From a virus: a DNA stretch of 33,838 nt. Where the stretch lies: IMG/VR virus record IMGVR_UViG_3300022939_000072, positions 1-33,838 of that record; one strand, 5' to 3'. The notes under the pieces were generated by a model. It had not been told where the DNA came from and did not search any database. It saw only the letters and a program-made list of their open reading frames with translations. Both the position numbers and the translations under genes were made by a program. Positions 17,501 to 33,838 of this stretch are shown here, piece after piece. Position 1 is the stretch's first letter, and every line of letters begins with the position of its first letter.

Positions 17501-20500
17501 ATGCTTTTTTAAGTAACAGGGGTAACCTTAGGGCAATGCGTTTTAATAATAAAATGTTTGATCAGGTTTTTACAGACAATATAGATAATGCTGTTTCTGC
17601 TATTGACTCTCAAATGCAATCTGAAATGGTTGTTGAAGAGGCTCAAGAAAAAATTGACTCTGCAAAAGCTTTAGGTATTGAACTTGACACTGCTACTGTT
17701 GAAAAAGAATTACTTAAAAACTATGATGTAGACTCTAAATCTTTTAAAAGAAATATTAAGTCCGGTTTTATTAACGAATTTCGTGATAAAATTGATGCTT
17801 TTATGGGTAAGAACACTAAAACAAAGCAAGACTTTGATAACAACTTAGCTAAAAATGCAGAAGCTATTTATGATACATTAACTGTTGAAGGTATGAGAAT
17901 GGCTCGCATGGAAGGTGGTTTAAACCCTTTTGAAGAAGCAGGCATGCTCGTTTTTAAAAATGGTCAGCTTGAAAAAGTTGCATTTAAAAATTTAAATAAA
18001 GATGAATTTGTAAAATATTTTAGCGACCCAAGTCTTAAAAAGCAAGCAAGATCTAATAGACAAAAGAGCCTTAAAGAGGCTATGACTGTTTCTGTGGCGG
18101 CTGCTCATGCTATTAAAATACTTAATACTAATGAAGCTTTAAAAAATAAAATTATAGATTTAAATGAGCTTAAGTCTAATGTAGCTAAAAATTTATTTCA
18201 ACAAAGTGATTTATTAACAGAAGAAGACTTTAATAGATATGAATCAGGCGGCTGGTCATCTATAGCCGCACAAAATAAAATTGAAAGACTATTAACAAAA
18301 AATGAAAACGATAGAGCGGCTGTACAAAGTTGGGCAATAAATGAATTGCCTAAATATTTTAGCAAAGAAGCTCTGCAAAAAATGGCTACAAGTTTTTCAA
18401 ATGGGCCACGGGAATTTTCTAAGGGCAATTGGTGGTTTGCGTCAACAGAAGATCTTTTAAATTCAATAGACCCTACACAAAAGTTTGCACCAGAATCAGA
18501 AAATATAAACATAGCCTTAACAAAGCAAGGGTACGGTAAAAATTTTATTAATAATATATTTGGTACAAAAGAGCATAAAGAATTTAATAAAAAGAAAATT
18601 CAAGGATTAAAAGAAATATTTTTAACATTTGAAAAAATGATTAAAGATAACCCGGATAATTCTAAATTTATTTTAGCTATACTTTCTAAAACAAGCGGAC
18701 ATCAAAATACTTTTGTTAGAGTTGCAGCTCCTATTAGATTTTTATCAAAAATAGCTGGCAAATCAGTCGAAGAGCATACAATGCCTGCAAGCATTGTAGC
18801 AAAATATTTATTTCAAAAAACTATAAAGGGTGAAATAAATAATTCTTTTAAGCCTATAGAAAAAAATTATTTTCAAGGGCAATTATTAGAAATTGATGAT
18901 AATAAATTAGTTGGAGACGGCTATAACTATAAATCGCTATTACCTGTAGGCTGGAAAGTCACTGATAATGTGTGGGCTAGATATTTTAATAAATTTGTTA
19001 GTAATAATAATGGAGGCATAAACCCTAATAATTATATTCTTGAAAACGGCAAAACTATTGCTGAAGAATTCAATGTTGGATTTGACGGTCTTATAGCTCC
19101 CGATATAAAAAAGACGCAACAAGAAGGAATTGCTGAACAAGCGGATAAAGTTGAGTTTATTATTGATAGAGCTATTGCTAAACTTAAAGAGCTTACAGGC
19201 ACAAAAGGTTTTGCTATTGATCCTTTTTTAATATTAGCAGCAAAAGATGTTAGTTTAAATGTTTTAATCGGAGGATTAAGAGCGGTTAAAATAGCATACA
19301 AAGGAGGAAAAAGCTTAGCAAAAGCAATTGATGCCGGATACCAGTCTGTTAAAAATTATATGACTGAGCGAGAATGGCTAGAATTTGCTAACCTTGCTAC
19401 GCGGGAAATAATTGATGAAAAAACGCCAGGACAGGTAAGATTATCTATATATAGTGAATCGGGCGTTGCTAAAGCTCAAGAGCAAGTAAGGCTACAAAGC
19501 GAAAGATTATTAAAAGACTTGGGTGTAGATACTACGGGATTAAGCACTGAAGAGCTTAATGAAAAATTAAATGTTTTACGTAAGGCTAGAAATGTTGCGT
19601 TAGATAAAAAAGCACCTAAAAAGAAAGCAAGAGTATTTGACTTTGACGATACACTTGCGCAGAGCAAATCTAATGTGCTTTATACGCTTCCAGACGGTAC
19701 AACTGGCAAATTAAACGCTACAGAATTTGCGGCTCAATCTGAGGAGCTTATGGAGGCCGGCGCAGAATTTGACTTTTCAGAGTTTTCTAAAGTTGTTGAC
19801 GGAAGCAAAGGGCCTTTAGCTGTTCTTGCTAAAAAATTAACTGAAGCAAAAGGAGATCGTGATGTGTTTGTATTAACGGCTAGACCGGCTAATTCGGCTC
19901 AGGCAATACAAAGTTTTTTACGTTCTGCTTTAGGCATAAGTATACCATTAGAAAACATAACCGGACTTGGTGACGGGGCTCCGAGTGCTAAAGCGTTTTG
20001 GATGGCAGAAAAAGTTGCTGAAGGCTATAACGATTTGTTTTTTGCTGATGATGCACCTAAAAATGTAGCTGCTGTAAATAAAATGCTTACTGACTTAGGC
20101 GTAAAAAAGAAAGTGCAAGTTGCTAAAGAGGCTGAAGCTCCATCTCTCGAAGATGAAATGGATAATATATTAAGATCTAAAAAACCTACTAAAGGCTCTT
20201 TATTTAGAAAAATTAATATATATGTTCCGCCCGGAGCTGACGACTTTATGGGATTGCTATACACATTTTTAGGCAAAGGCTCAATTGGCGAAGCTCAAAT
20301 GAAGTTTTTTCAAGATAATTTAATGACTCCATTTGCTAAAGGAATAGCCGCTTATGAAGCAGCAAAAGTTTCTTTAGCCCGAGATCATAGAGCGTTAAAG
20401 AAAAGATATAAAAATAAAAAGCTTTTAAAACAAAAAGTTCTTGATGGTTTATATACTAATGAACAAGCAGTAAGAGCATACTTATATGAAAAAGCTGGGT

Positions 20501-22365
20501 ATGATTTAGGCATGAATAAAGCTGATGCTGCCGGTTTAGTTTCTATAGTTGAAGGAAATGCTGAATTAAAAGCTTTTGCAGATGATTTAGCTAAAATAAC
20601 TAAAATACCAGAAGGCTATCCTGAAATAACAGAAAATTGGTTAGGTGGTAATATTCAAACTGATTTAGCTAATGTTTCAAATAAAGCTCAAAGAAAATTA
20701 TTTTTAACAGAATTTATTAATAATAAAGAACAAATATTTTCTGATATTAATATGAAGCTTATAAAACAAATGCATGGAAATGATTTTGTGGATGCATTGA
20801 AAAATGTTTTAGAGCGAATGGAAACTGGCGTAAACCGTAAGAAAGGTAAAGACAAAGAATTCAATGCTGCTATGAATTGGATTAACCAATCTGTAGCAAA
20901 CGTTATGGCTATAAACCTTAGATCTGCTGTTCTTCAGCAATTATCTATTATTAACTTCATGAACTGGAGTTTTAATAATCCATTTATGATGGCTAAAGCT
21001 ATGGCAAATGTACCTCAATTTAGCAATGACTTTATTGAGCTTTGGAATTCTACATTTTTAACCGAGCGTCGTGGCGGCCTAAAAATTGAAATTAATACCG
21101 CTGATCTTGCTGATTCAGAGCCTGGAAATTGGTTTTTAAGAACGCATAAAAAGCTTTTAGAGTTAGGTTTTAAGCCTACTCAATGGGGAGATAGCTTTGC
21201 TATTTCATTTGGAGGAGCTAGTTGGTATAGAAATAAAATAAACCAATTAGTAAACCAAGGAATGAATGAAGCGGAGGCTAAAGAACAAGCTATGCTTGAA
21301 TTCCAAGAAATTGCTGAAACATCGCAACAATCGTCTAGGCCAGATAAAATTTCTAGACAACAAGCATCTGAAATTGGTAGATTTATATTAGCATTTGCTA
21401 ATACTCCATTACAGTATGCGAGGGAAACTAAAAAAGCAACACTTGATTTAATTAATGGTAGAGGTGACTGGAAAACAAATGCTTCTAAAATAATTTATTA
21501 TGGCGCTGCTCAAAACATTATATTCTCTGGTTTACAAAGCGCTATATTTAGCTTATTGTTATCCGATAATGACGATGATGAAAAAGCTGAAAAGCAATTA
21601 GGATATTTTGCTAATGGCCTTTTAGATGGATTTTTAAGAGGTATGGGTTATTCGGGAGCCGTAATTGCTGCTCTTAAAAACCTTGGCATGGAATACTACG
21701 ATCAATACCAAAAACGCAAAGCTGGTAAAAGAGTATATGACCCTGCTTTAGGTTTAATACAAGCTGGTCTTACAATATCTCCTCCTGTAAGTAAAAAAAT
21801 TGGTGATATAGTAGAGGCTCAAAAATTTGAAAATTGGAGGCAATATAAAGACGATCCATTTTATCAAGGATTTGCAATTGCAAATTATACAGCTGCAATA
21901 GCTAATATACCTTTAGACAGGGCATTTAAAAAGGCCGAAAACTTAAAGGCTATTGATATGGATAAAAACGCGGCATGGCAAAATATTTTGTTAAGCTTAG
22001 GGTGGAGTCCTTATCAATTAGGTATTGAAACTAAAAAATCAAATAAAAATAAGTCTAAAAGAACACCTTTAAATAAAAAAGAAGCATTACCAGAAGGAGT
22101 ATTAGGTAAAGCACATAAAGATGGGACTATTCAAGTTGCACCGGGTTTATCACCAGCAAAAAAGAAAGAAGTTATTGCTCATGAAAAAAAGCATATTGCT
22201 GATATGAAATCTGGAAAACTAGGATATGATGCATCTAATGTTTATTGGGATGGTAATAAATATCCAAGAACACCTGATAAAAAAATAATTTATGATGGAG
22301 TTGCTTATGACGAAGGTCATAAACATTTACCATGGGAAAAATCAGCTAACAATATAAAAGTATAA
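14521..22365 (+). CDS. Giant internal virion protein with HAD-like and HExxH metallopeptidase-like domains
   Basis: 2614 aa, by far the largest gene. Residues 1-380 are charged helices. Two hydrophobic Gly/Ala stretches (~386-410, ~475-500) and one near the C-terminus (~2330-2348) could insert into membranes. Residues ~640-900 are coiled coil. Residues ~1701-1865 carry HAD motifs: DFDDT (D1707, D1709), LTARP (T1786) and FADDAPKN (D1843, D1844). Residues ~1870-2450 are a helical region (FILAFANTPLQYARETKKA). The last ~90 residues hold HEKKH (H2554, E2555, H2558) and a final PWEKSA. No RNA polymerase DxDGD motif is visible. Size and position match the largest DNA-ejection protein (T7 gp16 role). 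The enzymatic domains may trim nucleotides or cell wall, or process the protein; that is speculation. Confidence 0.65.
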   Translation: MLTENQRQELLNLAAQLEAQGLSQQEIQNAIDNKKAEMLGQNTLDEAKKIEPAAEEAAPAAGQNVMDLQREGGFLESLEETLPNRIAKEQKEADKKYIFRAEKGTIPGNLSFEGEYIVSKKDLFNDKSLNINSEEDLQKYLQYQFEKGKFVNEYAEDPMLIASGQESSSQFEALNEDELNNAKAEFKSYFENPTYSYSVPTIGGVPKTIVEDKDLNKKGFIEQAKAELKKEKPTGSIISDSEIYSKAEDLYIENLKQKKYNDKTEDIAKEADNRIELLKEQTKKAEGIADIGKLDAKNAQIERDVYTDVIKNIVSYTDNFSKVQIKNQKELDQAKQIQENINNAVSYISKKYESTDDIIKSSIEKANTSKEIKDLVKRNYDPLSNLVGSFAATSLDILGNTMQLPAYLFSATEGVVDALTEENISLGDFEKTGLEWGNFLKAGSEDIRSDIARPKAVSDLEADDFGLWFTQLIGNQLPIIATLAASGGYSGLVGMGAMTAGGKYAEMMAEMDSNPNIKYSRGQLFAAPAIVGLGEAGSELITLRQLNVLKAAFKKSPSLKESVVNYIKNQTFSGVASDIIGEGGTEMLAQGTENLVDKFMLDKKIELSEGLLDSFVSGAVMSAGVFKSPLIFKQIFNPFRSKDSEIEIARGEQLIKELNEEIAKLDPNIENDKKQIEFLGNAVNDIKSKQIKYLAKDLNNIDNLTTKQKQELIKLDSEIGKIRLDAAEVSNNSKTKNAYNLAIQPLKEKYDSLTQRKDTILQSANENNYDPASLERSILEGYQTKGLTRDFYLNKRVELLNEEIKNLEEIKKGVKDPERIAMLDLKIKNRQAQLAYSVPSAMGIVGTDFSTAKGIKKASLDFVNGSRELLELLNTKDPNLRITQEEYNARYAKLRKSFERAKSRLASKPKEFTKLQAIYDKYNIKKGETMPNKAALEFQNAMGGIVESIAKRLYDPVPKDSRGNYTRSQFIGDTKRNMVMLIQNEFDPQKQGLDAFLSNRGNLRAMRFNNKMFDQVFTDNIDNAVSAIDSQMQSEMVVEEAQEKIDSAKALGIELDTATVEKELLKNYDVDSKSFKRNIKSGFINEFRDKIDAFMGKNTKTKQDFDNNLAKNAEAIYDTLTVEGMRMARMEGGLNPFEEAGMLVFKNGQLEKVAFKNLNKDEFVKYFSDPSLKKQARSNRQKSLKEAMTVSVAAAHAIKILNTNEALKNKIIDLNELKSNVAKNLFQQSDLLTEEDFNRYESGGWSSIAAQNKIERLLTKNENDRAAVQSWAINELPKYFSKEALQKMATSFSNGPREFSKGNWWFASTEDLLNSIDPTQKFAPESENINIALTKQGYGKNFINNIFGTKEHKEFNKKKIQGLKEIFLTFEKMIKDNPDNSKFILAILSKTSGHQNTFVRVAAPIRFLSKIAGKSVEEHTMPASIVAKYLFQKTIKGEINNSFKPIEKNYFQGQLLEIDDNKLVGDGYNYKSLLPVGWKVTDNVWARYFNKFVSNNNGGINPNNYILENGKTIAEEFNVGFDGLIAPDIKKTQQEGIAEQADKVEFIIDRAIAKLKELTGTKGFAIDPFLILAAKDVSLNVLIGGLRAVKIAYKGGKSLAKAIDAGYQSVKNYMTEREWLEFANLATREIIDEKTPGQVRLSIYSESGVAKAQEQVRLQSERLLKDLGVDTTGLSTEELNEKLNVLRKARNVALDKKAPKKKARVFDFDDTLAQSKSNVLYTLPDGTTGKLNATEFAAQSEELMEAGAEFDFSEFSKVVDGSKGPLAVLAKKLTEAKGDRDVFVLTARPANSAQAIQSFLRSALGISIPLENITGLGDGAPSAKAFWMAEKVAEGYNDLFFADDAPKNVAAVNKMLTDLGVKKKVQVAKEAEAPSLEDEMDNILRSKKPTKGSLFRKINIYVPPGADDFMGLLYTFLGKGSIGEAQMKFFQDNLMTPFAKGIAAYEAAKVSLARDHRALKKRYKNKKLLKQKVLDGLYTNEQAVRAYLYEKAGYDLGMNKADAAGLVSIVEGNAELKAFADDLAKITKIPEGYPEITENWLGGNIQTDLANVSNKAQRKLFLTEFINNKEQIFSDINMKLIKQMHGNDFVDALKNVLERMETGVNRKKGKDKEFNAAMNWINQSVANVMAINLRSAVLQQLSIINFMNWSFNNPFMMAKAMANVPQFSNDFIELWNSTFLTERRGGLKIEINTADLADSEPGNWFLRTHKKLLELGFKPTQWGDSFAISFGGASWYRNKINQLVNQGMNEAEAKEQAMLEFQEIAETSQQSSRPDKISRQQASEIGRFILAFANTPLQYARETKKATLDLINGRGDWKTNASKIIYYGAAQNIIFSGLQSAIFSLLLSDNDDDEKAEKQLGYFANGLLDGFLRGMGYSGAVIAALKNLGMEYYDQYQKRKAGKRVYDPALGLIQAGLTISPPVSKKIGDIVEAQKFENWRQYKDDPFYQGFAIANYTAAIANIPLDRAFKKAENLKAIDMDKNAAWQNILLSLGWSPYQLGIETKKSNKNKSKRTPLNKKEALPEGVLGKAHKDGTIQVAPGLSPAKKKEVIAHEKKHIADMKSGKLGYDASNVYWDGNKYPRTPDKKIIYDGVAYDEGHKHLPWEKSANNIKV
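19621..20115 (+). other. HAD-like phosphatase domain inside giant virion protein
   Basis: Motif I 'VFDFDDTLAQ' (nucleophile D1707, acid D1709), motif II 'FVLTARPA' (T1786), a Lys in 'SAKAFWMAEKV' and motif IV 'LFFADDAPKN' (D1843/D1844) occur in the correct order and spacing for a compact HAD hydrolase. All catalytic positions are kept, so it is probably active. Confidence 0.7.
22084..22362 (+). other. C-terminal HExxH metallopeptidase-like domain
   Basis: Residues ~2522-2614 contain 'KEVIAHEKKHIADM' with H2554, E2555 and H2558, a zincin signature. Further candidate ligands are D2561, in the HExxHxxD arrangement, and a Glu in the terminal 'LPWEKSA'. It is placed at the extreme C-terminus, like processing or cell-wall peptidases on phage structural proteins. 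Confidence 0.55.
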
Positions 22366-22367
22366 AT

Positions 22368-22799
22368 ATGGAAGGAATTACTGATCCAAATGAATTAGAA
22401 AAAAGAATAGCTTCTGAATACCAAGAAGACCAAAAACAAAAAAACTTAGCTAAAAAATACGTTGCATACGAAGATGCATCAGAAGAAAGAAAAAAACGTA
22501 TAGAGGCTAGAGATAAAAACAAGCAAGCAAGATATGCGGCTCACAAACAAAGAGTAGACGCTAAGCGGGAAAGATATGCTGATAAAATGTTTTCAAAAGG
22601 TATTGTTAAAAATAAAAATGAGGCAAGAGATCGTTTTGATAATTTAAGAAATATAACATTAAGAAGCCGAAAAGAGGCAGACGAACTTACGTATCCTTTT
22701 AAAACTTCAGATGAATACAAAGAACCAGAAGTAGTAGATCCAAAAACTTCAACAATTGAGTTTAGATATGATAATACATATGATAATAGAATAGCATAA
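22368..22799 (+). CDS. Charged coiled-coil protein, unknown
   Basis: 143 aa, dominated by Lys, Arg and Glu (KKRIEARDKNKQARYAAHKQ), strongly helical to about residue 105, then an extended tail rich in Thr, Asp and Tyr. It begins two bases after the giant gene's stop and is the last gene before the bidirectional terminator. There are no cysteines, membrane segment or motifs. It may be a small virion or DNA-packing protein; no family is recognised. Confidence 0.6.
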   Translation: MEGITDPNELEKRIASEYQEDQKQKNLAKKYVAYEDASEERKKRIEARDKNKQARYAAHKQRVDAKRERYADKMFSKGIVKNKNEARDRFDNLRNITLRSRKEADELTYPFKTSDEYKEPEVVDPKTSTIEFRYDNTYDNRIA

Positions 22800-22800
22800 T

Positions 22801-22845
22801 AAAAAAATGGGGTATTGCAATTAAGCAGTACCCCATTCTTTATTT
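22801..22845. terminator. Bidirectional rho-independent terminator
   Basis: A 13-bp stem with one G-U pair (22806-22818 with 22825-22837; core AATGGGGTA/TACCCCATT) and loop AATTAA. It is flanked by an A7 run on the left, giving a T-tract for the minus strand, and by TTTATTT on the right for the plus strand. It sits exactly between convergent genes. Confidence 0.85.
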
Positions 22846-23086
22846 AAAATAACAATCCAATTAGAAGACCAACAATCGGACCAATAATAGCCCAACCTTC
22901 TAGCATTCTAATTTTTCTTAGCTCTGCACCAGTAAATACATTGTCAGATGTATCTAATATCACATTACCAGCTTTGTCTTTGAGCTCCTCCAATTGATCA
23001 CCAGCTTTTGCTTTTAACTCATCAAGTTCAGCTTCTAGCTCTTTGATCTTCTCCTTTGCTTTTTTAAACGTAAATCGTTCTGCCAT
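22844..23086 (-). CDS. Coiled-coil tail-anchored small membrane protein
   Basis: 80 aa. Residues 5-40 are a Lys/Glu coiled coil (KAKEKIKELEAELDELKAKA). After a polar linker, residues ~63-80 are one hydrophobic helix ending at the C-terminus (GWAIIGPIVGLLIGLLF). This topology places the coil in the cytoplasm or virion with a C-terminal membrane anchor. It is the last gene of the minus operon, 12 bases after nrdA. Candidates are a lysis accessory, superinfection or membrane-scaffold factor; no holin or spanin signature (no lipobox or signal peptide) allows a firm call. Confidence 0.6.
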   Translation of the reverse strand: MAERFTFKKAKEKIKELEAELDELKAKAGDQLEELKDKAGNVILDTSDNVFTGAELRKIRMLEGWAIIGPIVGLLIGLLF

Positions 23087-23098
23087 AATAAATTTTAA

Positions 23099-24841
23099 TT
23101 AACCGTCGCAGCTTAAACAATCAGGATCCATAGCCGCTGCCGCTATATCTCCCCTTAATACAGATTCTGTTCTGGTATAATATAGTGTTTTTATACCTCG
23201 CTTCCAAGCCTCTATATGAACTTGGTTTAGCCACCTTGGTGTAGCCTCGGATGGAAACGCTAAATTTAACGATACTGATTGATCAATATAGTCCTGTCGT
23301 ATTCCAGCTTGCCGCACCAATTCTAATTGGTTTATCTCTTTAAATGTTTTAAATACATTTTTTACAGACTCGCCTTCTACTTGGTTAAGTCTTCCTCCGT
23401 GATCATAAAACCATCCATCGAGTTCTTTAATTCCTTGAACGGATCCACCATCTTCCAGAATTTTATCCCAAGTTTCTTTATTATCAATACCAATTTTTCT
23501 TAATACTTTTTTAAGTTCTTTATTCTTACGTATAAATGTACCCTTAGCACTTTGTTCTGTAAACACATTGGCCGCCCAAGGCTCAATGCCTGGCGAAACG
23601 TTACCTGAAAGTTTTGAGTTAGATACGGTTGGCGCAATAGCTCTTAAATGCGTATTACGCATGCCTGTTCCAACACACCACAAAGGTTCACCATAAACCT
23701 CAGCTAAAGCACGAGACGCTCTTTCAGTTTCTATTTTTATTTTTGAAAAAATTTCTCGCGTTTTGAATTGTGCTAATAAACTTTCGAACGCTATTCCGTT
23801 TTTCTGTAACAGGCTGTGCCATCCAAGGACACCTAACCCAAGTGCCCGGCCTTTCTCCGCACTGCGTACAGAGTTCTCGAATCCCTTCATATTCTTTGCC
23901 TTCTGAATAAATTCTTCCAGCACACCGTCCAGGAACCAAGTTGCGTCGTAAATTAAATTCGTATTCTTCCATTCGTCGTATTTGTCTAAGTTTACTGATG
24001 ACAAGCAGCAAACAAAACTATGACTTTCATCTGTATGTAATACAATTTCACTACAGATATTAGTCATATGCACTTTTAAACTGTTTTTCTTATAAGCTTC
24101 TGGATTAGCTTTGTTTGTATTTCCTTTAAATAAAATGTATGGTTCTCCAGTTGCTTTGCGCTTTTGGAGAAGCTTTGACCATTTTCTTCTTGCGTCAGGA
24201 TTTCCTTGTTCAAGGTTTCGCATAAATTTATCGCCAACGACAGCACACTGGTGTAAGTTAAGAGATTGCCTGTTGACATCGCCTTTAGGTTCTCTGATTT
24301 CCAACCACTCTTCAAAATCGTTGTGTTCAATATTGATGTTAACACTTGCAGCTCCTCTTCTAACGGAACCTTGGTTGGTCGCGAGTATAGTTGAGTCGTA
24401 GATTTTGCAAAAAGGGACAACGCCGTCTGATGTTCCATTACCTGTAATTCTAGATCCAGCGGGTCTAATCATATTAATGCCAATACCAACACCGCCGCCA
24501 TGCTTGGCTAATAGCATCATTTCTAAATTCTTCATACCTATTTCATTAATGCTGTCACCAACATCAATTCCAAAACAACTTATAGGTAAACCTCTATCTG
24601 TGCCAGTATTTGATAATACAGGCGAAGCTAAACATAACCATCCATCCCATATATACTGAAAGAAACGATCAGCCATTTCTGGCTTATATAATCTTCTAGC
24701 TACAGTCTTAGCAACTCTCCAATAAGCATCTTTAGGCGTTTCACCAGGCAATAAATAACCACCTGTTATTGTTTTTTTGTAGACTTCTGTATCACCCCAA
24801 ATAGGGTAATCTTCGCCTTTTTTCCATTCGTTATCCCACAT
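23099..24841 (-). CDS. nrdA: Ribonucleotide reductase class I, large (alpha) subunit
   Basis: 580 aa. It reduces ribonucleoside diphosphates to deoxyribonucleotides with NrdB. Active-site features are present: C89 in 'PISCFG' (E. coli C225), N261/C263/E265 in 'NICSEI' (N437/C439/E441), C278 or C279 (C462), the Y554/Y555 pair in 'LYYTR' for radical transfer, and the C-terminal C575/C578 'CLSCDG' redox tail. It is much shorter than E. coli NrdA (761 aa). It starts directly at the pre-catalytic helices and has no N-terminal ATP-cone, so the known dATP overall-activity switch is absent. The start overlaps the preceding gene by 11 bases. Very confident. Confidence 0.95.
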   Translation of the reverse strand: MWDNEWKKGEDYPIWGDTEVYKKTITGGYLLPGETPKDAYWRVAKTVARRLYKPEMADRFFQYIWDGWLCLASPVLSNTGTDRGLPISCFGIDVGDSINEIGMKNLEMMLLAKHGGGVGIGINMIRPAGSRITGNGTSDGVVPFCKIYDSTILATNQGSVRRGAASVNINIEHNDFEEWLEIREPKGDVNRQSLNLHQCAVVGDKFMRNLEQGNPDARRKWSKLLQKRKATGEPYILFKGNTNKANPEAYKKNSLKVHMTNICSEIVLHTDESHSFVCCLSSVNLDKYDEWKNTNLIYDATWFLDGVLEEFIQKAKNMKGFENSVRSAEKGRALGLGVLGWHSLLQKNGIAFESLLAQFKTREIFSKIKIETERASRALAEVYGEPLWCVGTGMRNTHLRAIAPTVSNSKLSGNVSPGIEPWAANVFTEQSAKGTFIRKNKELKKVLRKIGIDNKETWDKILEDGGSVQGIKELDGWFYDHGGRLNQVEGESVKNVFKTFKEINQLELVRQAGIRQDYIDQSVSLNLAFPSEATPRWLNQVHIEAWKRGIKTLYYTRTESVLRGDIAAAAMDPDCLSCDG

Positions 24842-25187
24842 AATTATATAAATAAATTAAATAGCCTATTGCTACATTCAAATTTACAGCTACTAAATTC
24901 CATTGTTTTAAAACTAAAACCTGCGGAGTTAATAATAAACCAGCTATTACATATGTTATTGCTCCAATCTTACCATAACTTAATAAATGAGGAGACATCA
25001 TCATAAAAGCAGTGCCCATATACCCTAATCTGAAAGATAATCTTTCTACAGGTGATAATTTTTTTTGTAATACAAGAGCTCTTAAAAATCTTTGTTTAAA
25101 ACGATATTCGCATTTTTTACAAGTGCGTTTACCATATCTAAATTTATCAACTGATTTTTCTTTATGACATTTATTACATTTTCTCAT
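24831..25187 (-). CDS. Zinc-ribbon membrane protein between nrdB and nrdA
   Basis: 118 aa from the ATG at 25187, which overlaps the nrdB stop as TAATG; an in-frame TTG two codons earlier is less likely. Residues 4-26 hold two CxxC pairs (C4, C7, C23, C26) in a Lys/Arg-rich segment, a small zinc ribbon as seen in phage HNH-associated or DNA-binding proteins. Residues ~54-70, ~73-92 and ~97-115 are three hydrophobic segments consistent with membrane helices. It is co-translated with the RNR subunits. Many phages put a glutaredoxin between nrdA and nrdB; this is not one (no CPYC motif, no thioredoxin fold). The role is unknown. Confidence 0.7.
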   Translation of the reverse strand: MRKCNKCHKEKSVDKFRYGKRTCKKCEYRFKQRFLRALVLQKKLSPVERLSFRLGYMGTAFMMMSPHLLSYGKIGAITYVIAGLLLTPQVLVLKQWNLVAVNLNVAIGYLIYLYNYVG

Positions 25188-26155
25188 TACCAAATATCTT
25201 CAAAATCTTCGCCTTCGTTTGCTTTGGAATAATCAGTCGGACGAACAGCAAAAAAATCAGTATGAGTATGCCCCCCGGTAAGATGATAGAACCAGTCAAG
25301 ATTTGACGCTGCTTTTTCGTTAAATTCAAAGTGTTTCCCGTGGTCGCTGTAACCAAGCTCTTGCAATTTTTCATTGAGACGCTTTCTAATGAATTGTTTA
25401 AGATCGTAGGACTTAAGATTTTCAATGTCTCCTTGCTCGAACATTTTATCAATATATTGTTCTTCTGCTTTAAGCATTGTTTCTGCTGCTTTGAGTACAT
25501 CTTTTTCGCAATCTTTTAATAATTTAGGGTTTTCTTCACACATATGTCTGAATAAACGACAACCCATTTTGCTGTGTAGCGATTCATCACGTACAGACCA
25601 TTTCATTTGTTGACCTATTCCTTTAAGAAGATTACGTAATTGAAAGCTGTATAAAACAGCAAATGCTGAATATAAGCTTACGCCTTCTGCAAATGCACTA
25701 AATATTGCTAGTGAACGACCAATCCCAACAGGATCAGAACCATTATAGCTAACAAGATTCTCAAACCGTTCCGCAGTTGCGGGCTCATGTAAAAATGCTT
25801 CAAAATTTTCAAGTCCTAATGTTTCATTTAAATAACTATATGCTACGGCATGAATGGTTTCTTGTGAACCAAACATCATGGCCATTTGTTGTATCTCATG
25901 TTTAGGGAACCACGATACAACTTTTTGGGTCCAATAATCAGATACAGCACATTCCGTTTGTGCAAATCCCAAAAGTATATTTCCAACCAAGTTCTTCTCT
26001 GCTTTGGTAAGTTTTTCATTCCAATCTTTGACATCACCTGACATTGGTATCTCCGTATGAAGCCAAAAAGCTTGTGCTTGTTTAAGCCACCCTTCTGTAT
26101 AATATTCTGGGTATTCAAATGGTTTGTATGGTATTCTTTCATCAAATAGACTCAT
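25187..26155 (-). CDS. nrdB: Ribonucleotide reductase class I, small (beta) subunit
   Basis: 322 aa, ferritin-like. It generates the radical that NrdA uses. The di-metal ligand set is visible with exact E. coli spacing: E68 (position of D84), E99 and H102 in 'QETIHAVAY', E157, E191 and H194 in 'RDESLH'. Tyr106 matches the radical Tyr122. Tyr309 near the C-terminal 'DFEDIW' matches the Y356 relay and the NrdA docking tail. The first ligand is Glu instead of the usual Asp. It starts 14 bases inside the upstream gene and its stop is fused with the next start (TAATG). Very confident in family; the metal type cannot be read from sequence. Confidence 0.95.
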   Translation of the reverse strand: MSLFDERIPYKPFEYPEYYTEGWLKQAQAFWLHTEIPMSGDVKDWNEKLTKAEKNLVGNILLGFAQTECAVSDYWTQKVVSWFPKHEIQQMAMMFGSQETIHAVAYSYLNETLGLENFEAFLHEPATAERFENLVSYNGSDPVGIGRSLAIFSAFAEGVSLYSAFAVLYSFQLRNLLKGIGQQMKWSVRDESLHSKMGCRLFRHMCEENPKLLKDCEKDVLKAAETMLKAEEQYIDKMFEQGDIENLKSYDLKQFIRKRLNEKLQELGYSDHGKHFEFNEKAASNLDWFYHLTGGHTHTDFFAVRPTDYSKANEGEDFEDIW

Positions 26156-26348
26156 CTTTGTCTTTATCTTTTTTATATTGTTCTTTTAGTTCTTCTAAAG
26201 CTTTATCATAATCAGGTAATTTTTTTACAAGCTCCATAGTCCCAATACTTAAATCTTTAAGATTGTTTACTTCATTAATAAGTCTTGTAACAGCTCCTCC
26301 TAAAGCTTCTACTCTGTTTTGCATTTCAATTAGCTTTGACTCTTTCAT
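26142..26348 (-). CDS. Small coiled-coil protein, unknown
   Basis: 68 aa, all-helical: heptad-like residues 5-30 (IEMQNRVEALGGAVTRLINE), then a second amphipathic helix and a Lys/Asp-rich tail. The start overlaps the upstream 49-aa ORF by ATGA, and the end overlaps nrdB by 14 bases, so it is tightly coupled. No family was recognised. Confidence 0.6.
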   Translation of the reverse strand: MKESKLIEMQNRVEALGGAVTRLINEVNNLKDLSIGTMELVKKLPDYDKALEELKEQYKKDKDKDESI

Positions 26349-26494
26349 TCTAATATTTTTTTACTTAAAAAAACAGGAGAACCGTCCTTAATATAAGCAA
26401 TTATATGTTTATCACGTTCTTCAATTTTTATATCATCCCCTTGTTTAAATCTTGATGGATAATTTTTAATTAAATATTCTTCTATTTTATTCAT
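26345..26494 (-). CDS. 49-aa small protein, unknown
   Basis: The ORF encodes 49 residues beginning MNKIEEYLIKNYPSRF, with a basic N-terminal helix and a beta-like C-terminal half (IIAYIKDGSPVFLSKKI). Both ends overlap neighbours: its start lies in the last codons of the 45-aa ORF upstream, and its stop shares ATGA with the 68-aa gene downstream. Tight packing and natural-looking amino-acid composition support it as real. Confidence 0.55.
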   Translation of the reverse strand: MNKIEEYLIKNYPSRFKQGDDIKIEERDKHIIAYIKDGSPVFLSKKILE

Positions 26495-26624
26495 AATATA
26501 TAGTTAATATAATTTCTACAAAAGGAACATAAAAAACATGCTCTACAAATAGCTCTGATGGATAACTTCTAGCTCCTAAAAGTATACCCGGGTATAAACC
26601 TATACCTAATTCCCAGCCGGTCAT
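26487..26624 (-). CDS. 45-aa small hydrophobic protein, unknown
   Basis: 45 residues starting MTGWELGIGLYPGILLGARS and ending VEIILTIYYE. It is hydrophobic and aromatic without a clear single membrane span; a tiny beta-rich or peripheral membrane protein is plausible. The ATG overlaps the stop of the preceding reading frame (ATGA at 26624-26621), and its end overlaps the next gene by 8 bases. The pattern resembles small conserved marine-phage ORFs, but no function is known to me. Confidence 0.55.
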   Translation of the reverse strand: MTGWELGIGLYPGILLGARSYPSELFVEHVFYVPFVEIILTIYYE

Positions 26625-26737
26625 AATCTACTTTGTTCAAAATAATATAATAGCATTTTCATATGAAAATCTATTCTCTCTGCGTAATGATCAGGTAACT
26701 TGAATTCCGTGTTTGTTGTGGATTCTAACGATGTCAC
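26621..26737 (-). CDS. 38-aa small ORF with GTG start (tentative)
   Basis: From GTG at 26737 the frame encodes 38 aa ending in KLPDHYAERIDFHMKMLLYY plus FEQSRL, a protein-like amphipathic helix that no other frame here explains. No ATG is available upstream of M26 in the frame; a stop lies seven codons before the GTG. Its stop is fused to the next start (ATGA). It overlaps the 37-aa ORF by 47 bases. It may be a decayed or frameshifted remnant of a longer gene. Confidence 0.4.
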   Translation of the reverse strand: MTSLESTTNTEFKLPDHYAERIDFHMKMLLYYFEQSRL

Positions 26738-26804
26738 TATATCTAATAATTTTTTTATTTAATAACTGTTTAATGTCTCTTTGCAATATACGTTTGCTAT
26801 ACAT
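26691..26804 (-). CDS. 37-aa basic small protein, unknown
   Basis: The ATG at 26804 is fused to the stop of the endonuclease gene (TGATG), the coupling style used throughout this operon. It gives a 37-aa basic helical peptide (MYSKRILQRDIKQLLNKKII and onward to HGIQVT), possibly a small nucleic-acid binder. An in-frame ATG at 26915 would give 74 aa but would overlap the endonuclease by 112 bases, so the short form is preferred. The alternative cannot be excluded. Confidence 0.45.
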   Translation of the reverse strand: MYSKRILQRDIKQLLNKKIIRYSDIVRIHNKHGIQVT

Positions 26805-27259
26805 CAGCCTCGATTGCTTTTTCTGCTGTTCTTTATCAAAAGAATTGTTTGATCCACCTCCTTCTGGTTTTGCGGCTTGTAAAGCGTCTTTCCAATATTG
26901 TTTTTCGTGAGCCATAATTTAAATAATTTCCAGCGCAAAGGAAAAGACTCATTTGCTCTTCCTTTGCATTCTATAATATAATCTTTTCCAACAAAATCAG
27001 GCGTATACTTTATGCCTAATATTTTTTTATTACCTCTGTTTTTATATTCTCCTTTACCATTTGATTGCTTTTCAAAAGATTCATTTTGAAAATGAAAAGA
27101 TTCAACCAATTGGTAAGATTCATTTTCGTAACCCTCAAATAGCTTTTCTTTTTTTAAAGCCATATAAGTATAGCGCTCAAGACCAGAGGCAAATTTAATA
27201 CCATCATATGATATTTTTTTTGCTTGAACTGGTCCGCGCTTTTTGGATCTTTTTTTCAT
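26804..27259 (-). CDS. DUF1064-like PD-(D/E)xK endonuclease
   Basis: 151 aa. It has the PD-(D/E)xK core: E28 in 'GLERYTY', then P87-D88 in 'KYTPDFVG' and E97/K99 in 'YIIECKGRA', with a basic N-terminus. This pattern matches phage DUF1064/endonuclease I-like nucleases, which cut branched DNA or degrade DNA during replication and packaging. It lies in the nucleotide/replication operon. The start shares ATGA with the stop of the MazG-like gene upstream. The target (Holliday junctions or host DNA) cannot be told from sequence. Confidence 0.75.
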   Translation of the reverse strand: MKKRSKKRGPVQAKKISYDGIKFASGLERYTYMALKKEKLFEGYENESYQLVESFHFQNESFEKQSNGKGEYKNRGNKKILGIKYTPDFVGKDYIIECKGRANESFPLRWKLFKLWLTKNNIGKTLYKPQNQKEVDQTILLIKNSRKSNRG

Positions 27260-27549
27260 GTTCTATTTGTTGTCCACATATCACCGAAGTCTGGCTCAGG
27301 ATATGCTGATACAGCTTCAGGATCAACTACATTAATATCTTTTATATAACATTCTTCAATTTCATCTCTAAGCGACATTTTAGCTTTTTCAAGATAATTT
27401 ACAGCATCCATTAATTCTTCTTGTAAATGAGTTAGCCAAGCGTCTAATGGCTGGTCGTCGTCATACAAAGTAACGCCGTATTTTTTATAACCAACATCAG
27501 AACGTCGCTTTATTTTATTTACTACTTGTTCTATAATTTTATCACGCAT
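27256..27549 (-). CDS. Small MazG-like NTP pyrophosphohydrolase (all-alpha)
   Basis: 97 aa. The N-terminal half (KRRSDVGYKKYGVTL, then 'WLTHLQEELMDAVNYLEK') is the pattern of short phage all-alpha NTP-pyrophosphatase-like proteins, with metal-binding candidates E44, E45 and D48. The C-terminal 30 residues are Pro/Glu-rich and probably disordered. These enzymes hydrolyse (d)NTPs to (d)NMPs and PPi; the T4 dCTPase gp56 belongs to the same broad fold. It overlaps the upstream fusion gene by 8 bases, so two MazG-type proteins are made together. Substrate is unknown. Confidence 0.65.
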   Translation of the reverse strand: MRDKIIEQVVNKIKRRSDVGYKKYGVTLYDDDQPLDAWLTHLQEELMDAVNYLEKAKMSLRDEIEECYIKDINVVDPEAVSAYPEPDFGDMWTTNRT

Positions 27550-28297
27550 CTTTTACAAATGTTCCGTTAATCATTCTACCAGTTCTACTAGATATTTCAT
27601 TGTAAGCAGAATCAATACAATATTCAATTCTGGTACCTGCCAATTCGGCGAGATTAGTAAGGACAACAACGCAATCACCAATAGCATCAATAATCCCGTC
27701 TTTGTCATCCTTAAGAATAGATTGAGATAATTCTCCAGTCTCTTCATATAATTTTACTAATTGTGTTTTAACATCACCTTGACTAATTAAATTACGTTCA
27801 TTAGCCCAGCTTCTTATTTTATCAAATACTTGTAATTCATTTGACTCTATATACTTTTCAAACGGACCGGCTTCTGCCATAGCTTTGTTATAAATATAAC
27901 AGGTAGAAGGGCCAAACTGACTAGTATAAGCATTACTAATGACCCAATCAATTTTATCTTGAGCATCAAGCTTGAATTTTCCATAAGGTGTATTTATTTC
28001 TAAATCTGCTAGAAACGTACCATTTAAATCTGATTTAGGTATTTTAAATGTTGTTGTAGCGTCTGATGATGTATGTTTTTTCATTCGTTTAAATAATTTT
28101 TTATAAGGTCTTAAATCTTTTTTATAGCCATATTGCTCTTGCAAAATAGATTCAGCATTAGATGCTTCGTCTATACTTTCAGTTTCAAGCAATATTTCGT
28201 ATTCATTTTCTTTATAACCTTGTTGCTCGGTTACTCTTCGTTGCAAATTTGTTGTGCAACCAATTTTTTTTCCGGGTATGTGATATATATAATACAT
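27542..28297 (-). CDS. GIY-YIG nuclease-like / MazG-like fusion protein
   Basis: 251 aa. Residues 1-~70 resemble a compact GIY-YIG domain: 'YIYHIPGKKIGCTTNLQRRV' with a short spacer, R20/R21, and E49 in 'SNAESILQEQYGY'. Residues ~85-150 are a mixed linker domain. Residues ~155-251 are a MazG-like all-alpha NTP pyrophosphohydrolase: 'LVKLYEETGELSQ' (E185, E186, E189), 'DGIIDAIGDCVVVL' (D200, D204, D208) and the family's closing 'YNEISSRTGRM'. The start is fused with the stop of the ThyA-family gene (TAATG). The combination of a DNA-cutting domain and a dNTP-destroying domain in one protein beside a ThyA-family enzyme suggests nucleotide-pool control; activity is inferred. Confidence 0.7.
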   Translation of the reverse strand: MYYIYHIPGKKIGCTTNLQRRVTEQQGYKENEYEILLETESIDEASNAESILQEQYGYKKDLRPYKKLFKRMKKHTSSDATTTFKIPKSDLNGTFLADLEINTPYGKFKLDAQDKIDWVISNAYTSQFGPSTCYIYNKAMAEAGPFEKYIESNELQVFDKIRSWANERNLISQGDVKTQLVKLYEETGELSQSILKDDKDGIIDAIGDCVVVLTNLAELAGTRIEYCIDSAYNEISSRTGRMINGTFVKDA

Positions 28298-29103
28298 TAT
28301 GTTGATAATGGTGCTTTAATTGGTTTTAGTGGGTTATAATCTTTTAAGATTATATCTTCATGCTTTGGCATAACAATTGGCCAGCTCAATCCAGCTCTTA
28401 ATTCTATTGTAGGTAATTTTTTATCTTTCCTATCAAGGTATTCTTTTGCTTGATCAATATGATTATTATACAAATGTGTATCACCTAAGAAAGCTGTTAA
28501 TCTTCCTGGTTTATAACCATTGCCTTTAGCTAACATTAATAATAGTAAACCGTACATTGCAATATCATAAGGTAATCCTAAAAATACATCAACAGACCGT
28601 TGATTCCAAAGCAAGTCTAATTGGCCATCGTTAATATATACTTGAAAGCCGTAATGGCATGGAGGAAGTGCCATATCAGAAAGATCGTTGGGATTCCATA
28701 AGCTAACCATGAGGCGCCTCGATGATGGTTCCTGTGTAATTTGCTTGAGTAATGATTCAAGCTGATCATGACCATTAAAGTTCCTAAGCTGCTTCCCGTA
28801 AACTGGACCCAAAGTATTGTCTGATCTACCAGACCTCTTGTAATCATCGTCCCAATAATTAAGACCGTGCTCGTGCAGGTAATTAATATCAGTCTTTCCT
28901 TGAAGGATCCATAATAATTCCGTAATTGCATGATTAAAATATATTTTTTTAGCTGTTAATAATGGGAATCCCAAAGCCATATCATGCCTAAGTACTCTTC
29001 CGAAGACAGATCTTGTCCCTGTGCCAGTTCGATCTTTCTTTTGTGTTCCGCCATAGAGTACTCCTGATAATAATCCTCTGTATTCATCCTGTACGTTTAT
29101 CAT
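28297..29103 (-). CDS. thyA: Thymidylate synthase family enzyme; Asp180 suggests dCMP (hydroxy)methylase
   Basis: 268 aa, full-length for ThyA (E. coli 264). Family motifs are all present: R25 in 'DRTGTGT', E62, W84, 'LGPVYGKQ', the paired R129/R130, catalytic Cys149 in 'PPCHYGF', R169 in 'NQRSVDVFLGLP', 'GDTHLYNNH' and the C-terminal 'IKAP'. The residue after 'LGLPY' is Asp180 (codon GAT, 28566-28564); thymidylate synthases have Asn there (E. coli N177), which reads the uracil base. Asp at this site is found in T4 dCMP hydroxymethylase and, when engineered, lets thymidylate synthase act on dCMP. So the substrate is probably dCMP rather than dUMP. Family very confident; substrate is inference from one residue plus context. 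Confidence 0.85.
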   Translation of the reverse strand: MINVQDEYRGLLSGVLYGGTQKKDRTGTGTRSVFGRVLRHDMALGFPLLTAKKIYFNHAITELLWILQGKTDINYLHEHGLNYWDDDYKRSGRSDNTLGPVYGKQLRNFNGHDQLESLLKQITQEPSSRRLMVSLWNPNDLSDMALPPCHYGFQVYINDGQLDLLWNQRSVDVFLGLPYDIAMYGLLLLMLAKGNGYKPGRLTAFLGDTHLYNNHIDQAKEYLDRKDKKLPTIELRAGLSWPIVMPKHEDIILKDYNPLKPIKAPLST

Positions 29104-29386
29104 AATAATATTTCATTGTGTTATATAAAGCTTGATATACATTGTCTATAGTATAAACGTTAGGCGATAAATATGTTTTTTCACCGCGCTTATATGGACC
29201 AATAGCTATTTCAATACGCCATTCTTCTGGATACATTCCTTGTTGTGTTGGTTTAGTAGATATTCTAATATCATTATCCACACAATACTTATACCATTTT
29301 TGTTCATCTTCATTTGGCGCATAGTCTATAGAACATAAACCTTTATGGTTTTTCTTTTTAGCATTTGATTTTAATCCGCTTCCCAT
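29084..29386 (-). CDS. 100-aa replication-operon protein, unknown
   Basis: 100 aa. Basic N-terminus (SGLKSNAKKKNHKG), then an alpha/beta body with 'EEWRIEIAIGPYKRGEKTYL' and a Tyr-rich C-terminal helix (YQALYNTMKYYYDKR). It overlaps the primase-helicase end by 16 bases and the ThyA-family start by 20 bases, so it is part of the same coupled transcript. There is one Cys-rich hint only (two isolated Cys), not a zinc finger. Possibly a small DNA- or primase-binding protein; not recognised. Confidence 0.6.
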   Translation of the reverse strand: MGSGLKSNAKKKNHKGLCSIDYAPNEDEQKWYKYCVDNDIRISTKPTQQGMYPEEWRIEIAIGPYKRGEKTYLSPNVYTIDNVYQALYNTMKYYYDKRTG

Positions 29387-31080
29387 GGCATAACATAATC
29401 ATTTGTATCCTCAACTGGTAAATAATCACCACTATTGTGGTCCCATTTAAAATGAGCTTCAGCTTGGTTTTCACCTAAGTTTTGAAACTTTACTTTAAGC
29501 ACCTTAACTTTGACGGTTTTTTTATTGTAATCGCGATGAACAAGTAAGCCGTGATATGATGCATCATACCATTCACCGCCACCTTTAATGCTATACATAG
29601 TTGGTTCATCAATTGTACCATCTTCTTTTTTATGCATTTTAGTTGGGTGAGCAACTATAATAACTAATACATCATATTTTTTAGCAAATGCTTCAACCCT
29701 TGTTAAATATTCCATTGTTGCGTCCGGTATACTCATAGCACTAGCTCCTTGCATTTTAACTTTATTATAGGGATCTATAACCAAGCATTTAATACCTTTA
29801 CGCTTTACAAGCTCTGCACCCTTTTTTAATACAGCGTCAAGATCATATCTTTCATTTTCTATAAAATAAAAGTTATCGTTTACTTTGCTTATAATGTCAT
29901 TCCATCTATCAGTGCCTATATCGTTTTCTTTAGGCATCCATCCACCTATCTTGCGTATCAGTTTATGTACATGTAAAAATGTTGGTTTGTTTTCAGGAGA
30001 AGCAAAAGCTGTTTTCCAACCATATTTTAAGTTGTATCCCACCACCATTCGATCAACAAAGTCAGACTTGCCACTGCTAGGAACGCCTGTAACGGTGATG
30101 AATTGTCCTGTGTAAGTAGAGAATATGCTATCAAAGTTATTAAGGCCGATTTGATAACCAGGTTTAAAACCTTCATAAATAAATTCTTCGAGTTCATCAT
30201 TTACATCTTTTAAAGTTACTACATTTTCTATTGGTACAGGCTTAGCCTTATCAATAACGCTACGAAGCATATTGCTCCCATTCCCAATAAGAAATTCGTT
30301 AGCATCTTTATATGCGTCGAAGCTAACCGTGTAGCATTTTTCCGCTCCAAGTCTTCGAATAAGCTCTTGTTTAAGCGCAAGTCCCGCCTCATCTTCATCA
30401 ACTGCGAGTATGATTTTTTCTTTTGTCTCGAAATAATCAATACAGGAATCCAAGTAATCAAGGTTAACATTGTTAATTGTAGCTCCATTTGGTACGGATA
30501 TAACAGAATCAATACCGCTTTCAATAAAAGATAAAGCATCCATCTCCCCTTCCACAATAACCACATATTCATGGCCAATAGTACGGTCAATATTGTAAAA
30601 TACCTTTTCGGCTCCCCTAACCAGTTTAAAATTTTTCCTACCATCTCTATACTTTATGTTTATAAGTTCATTATTAATAAAGTAATTAAATTGAATTGTA
30701 TTTTCATTCTTACCAGTTTGAGGCATAAACTCAATACCTTCAGTTATTTTCATTTTAACTAAAGTTTTTTGGCTTATGCCGCGAGCTTCAAACCATTGTA
30801 TTGCTCTATCACTTAACTCAGTATTATTTTTCCATTCAGGTTTAACATATTCTTTTAAGCTATCAGATTTTCTTTTAAATGTATGTAGCTGAAATACTTC
30901 ATTACAATTCATACAAGTACCGAGACCACGTTCCCAATCATACATAGCACATTTAGCTTTTTGATTTTTAGGCTGGCGGTTGTGCGAGCAGAGAGGGCAT
31001 ATACCCTCCCGCTTGCCAACATCCAGATCATATTGATTGAAATTATCAATTTCAAAACCGTTAATCTCTGTTGTATTCAT
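29371..31080 (-). CDS. Primase-helicase (T7 gp4-like)
   Basis: 569 aa, full-length for T7 gp4/Twinkle-type enzymes. An N-terminal zinc-binding domain has C28, C31, C56 and C59. A TOPRIM primase fold follows, with 'VIVEGEMDAL' (E178) and 'AVDEDEAG' (D228, D230). The RecA-like helicase domain has Walker A 'GVPSSGKSD' (332-340), Walker B 'KCLVIDPYNK' (D436), 'VIIVAHPTK' (H478) and later arginine-containing motifs. The C-terminus is acidic (WEAD), as in T7 gp4, where such a tail contacts the DNA polymerase. It unwinds the fork and primes lagging-strand synthesis. It starts immediately after the 22-aa micro-ORF. DNA polymerase itself is not in this window. Confidence 0.9.
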   Translation of the reverse strand: MNTTEINGFEIDNFNQYDLDVGKREGICPLCSHNRQPKNQKAKCAMYDWERGLGTCMNCNEVFQLHTFKRKSDSLKEYVKPEWKNNTELSDRAIQWFEARGISQKTLVKMKITEGIEFMPQTGKNENTIQFNYFINNELINIKYRDGRKNFKLVRGAEKVFYNIDRTIGHEYVVIVEGEMDALSFIESGIDSVISVPNGATINNVNLDYLDSCIDYFETKEKIILAVDEDEAGLALKQELIRRLGAEKCYTVSFDAYKDANEFLIGNGSNMLRSVIDKAKPVPIENVVTLKDVNDELEEFIYEGFKPGYQIGLNNFDSIFSTYTGQFITVTGVPSSGKSDFVDRMVVGYNLKYGWKTAFASPENKPTFLHVHKLIRKIGGWMPKENDIGTDRWNDIISKVNDNFYFIENERYDLDAVLKKGAELVKRKGIKCLVIDPYNKVKMQGASAMSIPDATMEYLTRVEAFAKKYDVLVIIVAHPTKMHKKEDGTIDEPTMYSIKGGGEWYDASYHGLLVHRDYNKKTVKVKVLKVKFQNLGENQAEAHFKWDHNSGDYLPVEDTNDYVMPWEAD

Positions 31081-33452: not shown

Positions 33453-33838
33453 CTAATTTGAATAAATTTTCAATTTATTTTCAGCATATTCATAAACCTT
33501 AGATGAAGACTTAACACCATTAGTAACTACGTAATATGCTAACTCATTTAGCGCTTGCTCGTTAGACTTTATTTTTTTAAGTAATCGTTGTTTTTGCTTT
33601 TTTACAGCCTCAGTATTGGTATGAAATTTTTGAGCTATTTCAGAAATAGTTTTAGGTTTAGAATAAACATCATCAATACCATAAAGCATTAAGATCATTT
33701 CTTTGTATTTAGGTAAATGCTTGTCTAACCATGTTTCTAAAAATATTGCAAGTTGCTCATAATCATAATCATATACTTCATCTTCAATTAAAGTAAGCAC
33801 GTTATTATCAAACCAATGCGGAAATAAAACTGTAATAA
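33453..33838 (-). CDS. Sigma factor region-4-like protein (5' partial)
   Basis: The frame is open to the right edge; a GTG at 33800 would give 115 aa, but in-frame codons (FPHWFDNN) continue to the window end, so the gene probably starts outside. The segment 'KYKEMILMLYGIDD', then 'KTISEIAQKFHTNTEAVKKQ' and 'KQRLLKKIK' follows the pattern of sigma-70 region 4: a conserved helix, then a helix-turn-helix that reads the -35 box. An acidic stretch (EDEVYDYDYEQ) precedes it. It may be a phage sigma factor directing its own middle or late promoters, or only a sigma-4-like transcription factor. No region 2 is visible in this window. Confidence 0.55.
   Translation of the reverse strand, partial: ITVLFPHWFDNNVLTLIEDEVYDYDYEQLAIFLETWLDKHLPKYKEMILMLYGIDDVYSKPKTISEIAQKFHTNTEAVKKQKQRLLKKIKSNEQALNELAYYVVTNGVKSSSKVYEYAENKLKIYSN

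Follow-up and report, generated by a model that had tools for sequence, protein, structure and literature searches.

Interchangeable dCMP enzymes beside a GIY-YIG–MazG fusion point to cytosine-modified DNA in a mostly marine phage family

A mostly marine family of uncultured phages very probably swaps the cytosines of its DNA for a modified form, judging by its genes: most likely 5-methylcytosine in the phage analysed here and 5-hydroxymethylcytosine in some of its close kin. What is new is a set of interchangeable dCMP enzymes encoded beside a GIY-YIG–MazG fusion, in phages where no DNA polymerase is recognised. The window, an entire IMG/VR virus record of 33,838 bases, is a fragment of a phage genome whose minus-strand half is an early operon and whose plus-strand half holds the structural genes. 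We think it reasonably likely that, ahead of replication, a cassette in this operon modifies a cytosine nucleotide and bars plain dCTP from the phage DNA, the product here being most likely 5-methyl-dCMP. Ribonucleotide reductase (RNR) would supply deoxynucleotides, the MazG domain would hydrolyse dCTP to dCMP, and an Asp-type ThyA, to go by its residues, would transfer a one-carbon unit from methylene-tetrahydrofolate to C5 of dCMP. The product would most likely be 5-methyl-dCMP in the window phage, and 5-hydroxymethyl-dCMP in sister phages that carry a gp42/MilA-like enzyme in the same slot. Host kinases would raise the modified dCMP to the triphosphate for incorporation by a host polymerase, and the benefit would be restriction resistance, the phage DNA being hidden from bacterial restriction enzymes. 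An earlier note had already proposed a cytosine-modification cassette for this dCMP-type ThyA coupled to MazG and RNR; it is still the best reading, and three further observations now back it: the genes are strictly linked, other Asp-type enzymes can take the ThyA slot, and the avoidance of restriction sites is relieved.

The operon runs on the minus strand from a primase-helicase (29371–31080; phrog_239, E 6.7e-83) through a 100-aa gene (29084–29386), ThyA (28297–29103), the 251-aa GIY-YIG–MazG fusion (27542–28297), a 97-aa gene (27256–27549), a DUF1064 gene (26804–27259) and small genes to RNR beta (25187–26155), another small gene and RNR alpha (23099–24841). The primase-helicase lies directly upstream in the same operon, an order that is the same in relatives, and 15 of 18 genomes keep the 100-aa gene, which has no confident family. 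ThyA and the fusion share a common TAATG at their junction and the fusion overlaps the 97-aa gene by 8 bases, so the three consecutive coupled genes described earlier stand. The cassette is larger than was then said: the DUF1064 gene, which overlaps the 97-aa gene by 4 bases and encodes a predicted Holliday-junction-resolvase-like nuclease (PF06356, E 4.3e-9; phrog_190, E 4e-12), belongs to it too. Both subunits of a class I RNR are found downstream by profile match, as had been stated (small subunit, PF00268, E 4.2e-58; large subunit, PF02867, E 1.6e-91, with NCBIfam PRK09102 over cut-off). One relative, G014 (L128, about 22441–27152), has the cassette and, in the compared neighbourhood, no counterpart of the RNR genes that the other genomes carry; close to their position is a 620-aa gene. 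Elsewhere in the window are a 2,614-aa virion-type protein (14521–22365), for which profiles give no more than a weak match to polynucleotide kinase (E 0.0011), and a sigma-factor-like gene (33453–33836) that is cut off by the window end and is full length in relatives.

ThyA matches PF00303 (E 1.1e-86) and has the ThyA fold with catalytic Cys149. A residue map places Asp180 (codon 28564–28566, minus strand), the equivalent of E. coli thymidylate synthase Asn177, where the LPFNIA motif has Asn; Glu62, Tyr102, Arg129/130, Asp172 and His210 are retained. With the window ThyA as query we found 80 IMG/VR relatives, and this residue is Asp in all 51 at 58–76% identity and Asn in all 29 at 47% or less. 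Engineered Asn-to-Asp thymidylate synthases give 5-methyl-dCMP. Published work, as summarised in one study, has shown that Asn to Asp at position 177 makes thymidylate synthase a dCMP methylase (PMC8670742). The earlier designation of ThyA as dCMP type is thus upheld by an Asp at the specificity site that is invariant throughout the window's clade. The MetaGPA study also associates residue 147 with modification (PMC8670742), and this residue is His in the window ThyA, which counts against the modification reading.

The neighbourhood divides along the same line. The fusion, the 97-aa gene and the DUF1064 gene lie near ThyA at 51 of 51 Asp-type loci, the 97-aa gene being on the opposite side of ThyA in five, and none of the three is found at any of the 29 Asn-type loci; gene order is near-invariant across 18 long genomes, the window included. 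In some relatives (L126 and L135:5993–6541, from G010 and G026) a 180-aa gene with a secreted-CAP-type look stands between ThyA and the fusion. A reverse search with the fusion as query returned 80 loci, and at every one the ThyA slot is occupied by a ThyA-superfamily gene of Asp type: 60 are of the window type, 18 of the T4 gp42/MilA-like hydroxymethylase type and 2 of a third type (L184:2167–2997 and L196) that keeps Trp83 and has Tyr instead of His147. The gp42/MilA-like genes are short (about 213 aa) and lack a long C-terminal tail, with Glu60, Ser94, Tyr96, Asp145, Cys148 and Asp179 in all 17 full-length copies and in the present part of the fragment L217. In the PDB they match MilA best (E 2.8e-22), with one thymidylate synthase practically level and T4 dCMP hydroxymethylase next at 2.9e-16. 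Different dCMP-type enzymes interchange while their partners stay the same, which speaks strongly for a role of those partners in cytosine modification. The interchange also weighs against an ordinary thymidylate synthase that tolerates Asp beside a pool-cleaning MazG, in a phage with unmodified DNA. The window sequence is overall most like canonical thymidylate synthases, and related phages that have no ThyA commonly carry MazG-like genes; even so, this account is highly improbable given an Asp that is invariant in the clade, Asn-type kin that lack the cassette and a slot otherwise filled solely by other Asp-type enzymes. If the cassette does modify cytosine, slot replacement would be a natural experiment on two questions: what makes a ThyA-family enzyme transfer a methyl or a hydroxymethyl group, and whether the partner proteins are sensitive to the base produced.

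For the window enzyme itself, 5-methyl-dCMP, following the logic of Xanthomonas phage XP12, is the likelier product than 5-hydroxymethyl-dCMP, following that of T4. This preference comes from the features that the sequence shares with thymidylate synthase: the C-terminal tail and the equivalents of Leu143, Val93-Tyr94 and His147 are retained, and the Trp83 equivalent is the sole one of the compared features to be lost. Trp83 limits solvent access in thymidylate synthase. The T4 dCMP hydroxymethylase lacks or alters those thymidylate-synthase features, and Ser94, Tyr96, Asp145, Cys148 and Asp179 are tied to hydroxymethylation in T4 (PMC6400193). The window ThyA has Asp180 as its equivalent of T4 Asp179, and it has neither the Ser94 and Asp145 equivalents (it reads Pro-Val-Tyr and Leu) nor the short C-terminus, ending instead in a full thymidylate-synthase tail. 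Gp63 of Stenotrophomonas phage AXL1, the XP12 kin through which that comparison is made, is without some of the retained hydride-transfer features, so these mark methyl transfer and not XP12 kinship. The earlier note had followed the logic of T4, by which the window ThyA would be a dCMP hydroxymethylase and the DNA would carry 5-hydroxymethylcytosine. Such an enzyme would not need the DHFR that went unrecognised in scans of genomes G005 and G015, and the gp42/MilA-like type does occupy the same slot with the same partners in sister phages. The lost Trp83 equivalent would suit it as well, but this residue is also missing in the Asn-type kin, and together with the missing hydroxymethylase residues, the retained tail and Leu143 this makes T4-like hydroxymethylation by the window enzyme unlikely. 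The T4 analogy therefore fits the 18 sister loci better than it fits an enzyme with methyl-transfer features of the thymidylate-synthase type.

In the tree, the window's Asp clade (100/99) falls among ordinary thymidylate synthases, its sister group (99/95) being the Asn-type phage enzymes. Apart from this clade stand the third Asp type, the gp42-like type and AXL1 gp63, and long branches leave the exact places of T4 gp42 and AXL1 unsure. The change to Asp most likely arose several times. An annotated thymidylate synthase adjoining DHFR in the 171-kb Yersinia phage vB_YenM_P8 (L240:292–1152) reads LPFD, with Asp at 177, and is possibly a further dCMP-type enzyme in a large phage.

Both domain types assigned earlier to the fusion exceed their Pfam cut-offs (T5orf172, 1.8e-5; MUG113, 1.2e-4; MazG, 1.5e-5, the last, PF03819, at 25.6 bits against a cut-off of 22). 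The predicted fold of the MazG pyrophosphohydrolase domain (about residues 152–250; 27548–27844, minus strand) agrees with MazG structures, matching 1vmg over 82 residues (TM 0.80 by target length, Z 10.1, rmsd 2.5), and PF03819 matches exactly once in each of 26 related records. In the 18-genome alignment the MazG metal motif EExxE...ExxD is present in its first half as EETGE; in its second half, DAIGD, Ala takes the place of the ExxD glutamate, which counts against the dCTP-hydrolysing cassette that we favour. All fold matches listed for the fusion by Foldseek and VIA-align fell on the MazG half, which is no evidence against the GIY-YIG half, where Y5, G13, R21 and E49 are invariant in 18 of 18 genomes. 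In T4, host DNA is broken down by the GIY-YIG enzyme Endo II, modified T4 DNA being protected (PMC1564403). By analogy, and speculatively, the GIY-YIG domain and the DUF1064 nuclease might attack unmodified host DNA, a setting in which the fusion of a GIY-YIG domain to one that removes dCTP would be understandable. The MazG-like gene of a cultured relative, PJN03, is homologous to the window MazG domain (41%), and homology is not clear for that of phi10:1; the regions shown of both phages contain no ThyA. A search of one literature library found no paper pairing MazG with a dCMP hydroxymethylase, or GIY-YIG with MazG. If the modification reading holds, the fusion would be a marker gene for finding such phages. 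The 97-aa protein, previously taken for a second, small MazG-like enzyme, is not supported as one: it has no match in Pfam, NCBIfam or PHROGs, no profile-profile match to the fusion and no PDB fold match, and a weak EELMDA..Y resemblance is all that remains. Its low-confidence model (pLDDT 70.6) consists of two helices with no significant PDB match. The gene is real and conserved, being kept in 18 of 18 genomes.

A dNMP kinase and modifying transferases had been expected elsewhere in the genome. PF21448, the dNMP kinase family, matches none of 46 related records, which may be fragments, although three (G005, G015 and G039) have 127-base end overlaps and are probably complete. Scans of otherwise unassigned ORFs of G005 and G015 with Pfam and PHROG, and of ORFs special to G039 with Pfam, recognised no kinase, no glycosyl-, carbamoyl- or other base-modifying transferase, no deaminase and no DHFR (for PHROG, among the matches listed, 25 of 33 families); the same scans did find DNA ligase, GroES, a sigma factor and a pyrimidine-dimer glycosylase. 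Neither expectation was thus borne out. The earlier note had further held that a missing kinase would speak against the cassette; the kinase is indeed missing as far as PF21448 tells, but this is a weak test, because the gp42/MilA-like sister phages also lack it and host kinases could serve. DNA polymerase A is likewise found in none of 26 related records. Since neither gene is recognised in these phages, phosphorylation and polymerisation probably rest on the host, and it is a testable puzzle how a cytosine-modifying phage would get by when neither a dNMP kinase nor a DNA polymerase is recognised in it. That host is likely a member of the Bacteroidota, since the named phages with the closest portal proteins infect Flavobacterium, Cellulophaga, Tenacibaculum and Maribacter; a search of bacterial genomes for a GIY-YIG–MazG relative as a host clue found none. 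Should the cassette work as proposed, cytosine-modified genomes would be common in a marine phage group whose nearest named kin infect Bacteroidota. GroEL and GroES are phage-encoded in 11 of the 18 genomes compared, for example in G005 (L092:3715–5552), and also in Elemovirus and ctfjg026.

Several known systems share parts of this arrangement. In XP12, 5-methylcytosine is made at the dCMP level. Its kin AXL1 resembles the window in having an Asp177 ThyA adjoining a nucleotide pyrophosphohydrolase, with a class I RNR of the same family in the genome, but its ThyA is only 30% identical to that of the window and has Pro at position 147, a DHFR, a dCMP deaminase and DNA polymerase I lie beside or near its cassette, and there is no GIY-YIG fusion. 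T4, with gp42, gp56 and RNR for 5-hydroxymethylcytosine, likewise combines a dCMP-type ThyA-superfamily enzyme, a dCTP-removing enzyme and RNR; its dNMP kinase, glucosyltransferase and DNA polymerase are not recognised in the records and ORFs scanned from the window's phages. MilA (PDB 5b6d) is a CMP 5-hydroxymethylase of an antibiotic pathway, prefers CMP and is not similar to the window's type of ThyA. The MazG-like pyrophosphohydrolase of cyanophage S-2L (PDB 7ody) has a similar fold (Z 9.6) and also serves phage base modification, but of another base by another pathway (2-aminoadenine) and without a GIY-YIG fusion. MetaGPA phage contigs place an Asp177 ThyA near a pyrophosphohydrolase together with an hmC carbamoyltransferase (PMC8670742), which is not recognised in the ORFs scanned here. 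Against this background we tentatively raise a broader proposal, itself somewhat doubtful: that one lineage swaps dCMP methylase and hydroxymethylase in one slot, with 5-methylcytosine and 5-hydroxymethylcytosine as alternative states served by the same partners, and that the fusion unites dCTP removal with a nuclease sparing modified DNA (the tasks of gp56 and Endo II in T4), a host polymerase doing the copying.

Restriction-site content is consistent with modified DNA. Counts of 4-base palindromes containing C were compared with a maximal-order Markov expectation, depletion being set at four-fold or more. Such palindromes are depleted in 0 of 36 cassette sequences (22 long genomes and 14 further loci) versus 40 of 48 cassette-free kin; because all cassette phages belong to a single lineage, this contrast does not separate the cassette from lineage or host, and loci are not independent. 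Among the controls, all 6 named phages show depletion, as do 34 of the 42 loci taken from relatives of phage ctfjg026 that have no cassette, mostly for GATC, CATG, CTAG or CCGG; palindromes of A and T only are depleted in neither group. GATC occurs 111 times in the window against 96 expected, and not at all in ctfjg026 (146 expected in 50 kb) or Panino (172 expected in 48 kb). Twelve of the longer records of ctfjg026 kin have no PF00303 gene. The lack of avoidance also bears on thymidylate salvage, in which a host deaminase would convert 5-methyl-dCMP to dTMP to feed dTTP, leaving DNA cytosines plain. This deamination is possible in principle, RNR and MazG would equally suit pool adjustment, and the AXL1 cassette has a dCMP deaminase; salvage is nonetheless very unlikely, as it sits poorly with the absent avoidance, with the lack of a recognised deaminase in the ORFs scanned from G005, G015 and G039, and with a hydroxymethylase-type slot enzyme that would not yield dTMP. 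Phage DNA methylases were considered as a cause of the absent avoidance and rejected, with no PF00145, PF02086 or PF05869 match over cut-off; a single match to PF02086, in G026, lies below threshold and is interrupted by stop codons. Eight of the 42 control loci are also without depletion, and among cassette-free ctfjg026 kin, most of which are nearly GATC-free, L244, L278, L287 and L317 show no GATC depletion; these may carry other protection or have other hosts.
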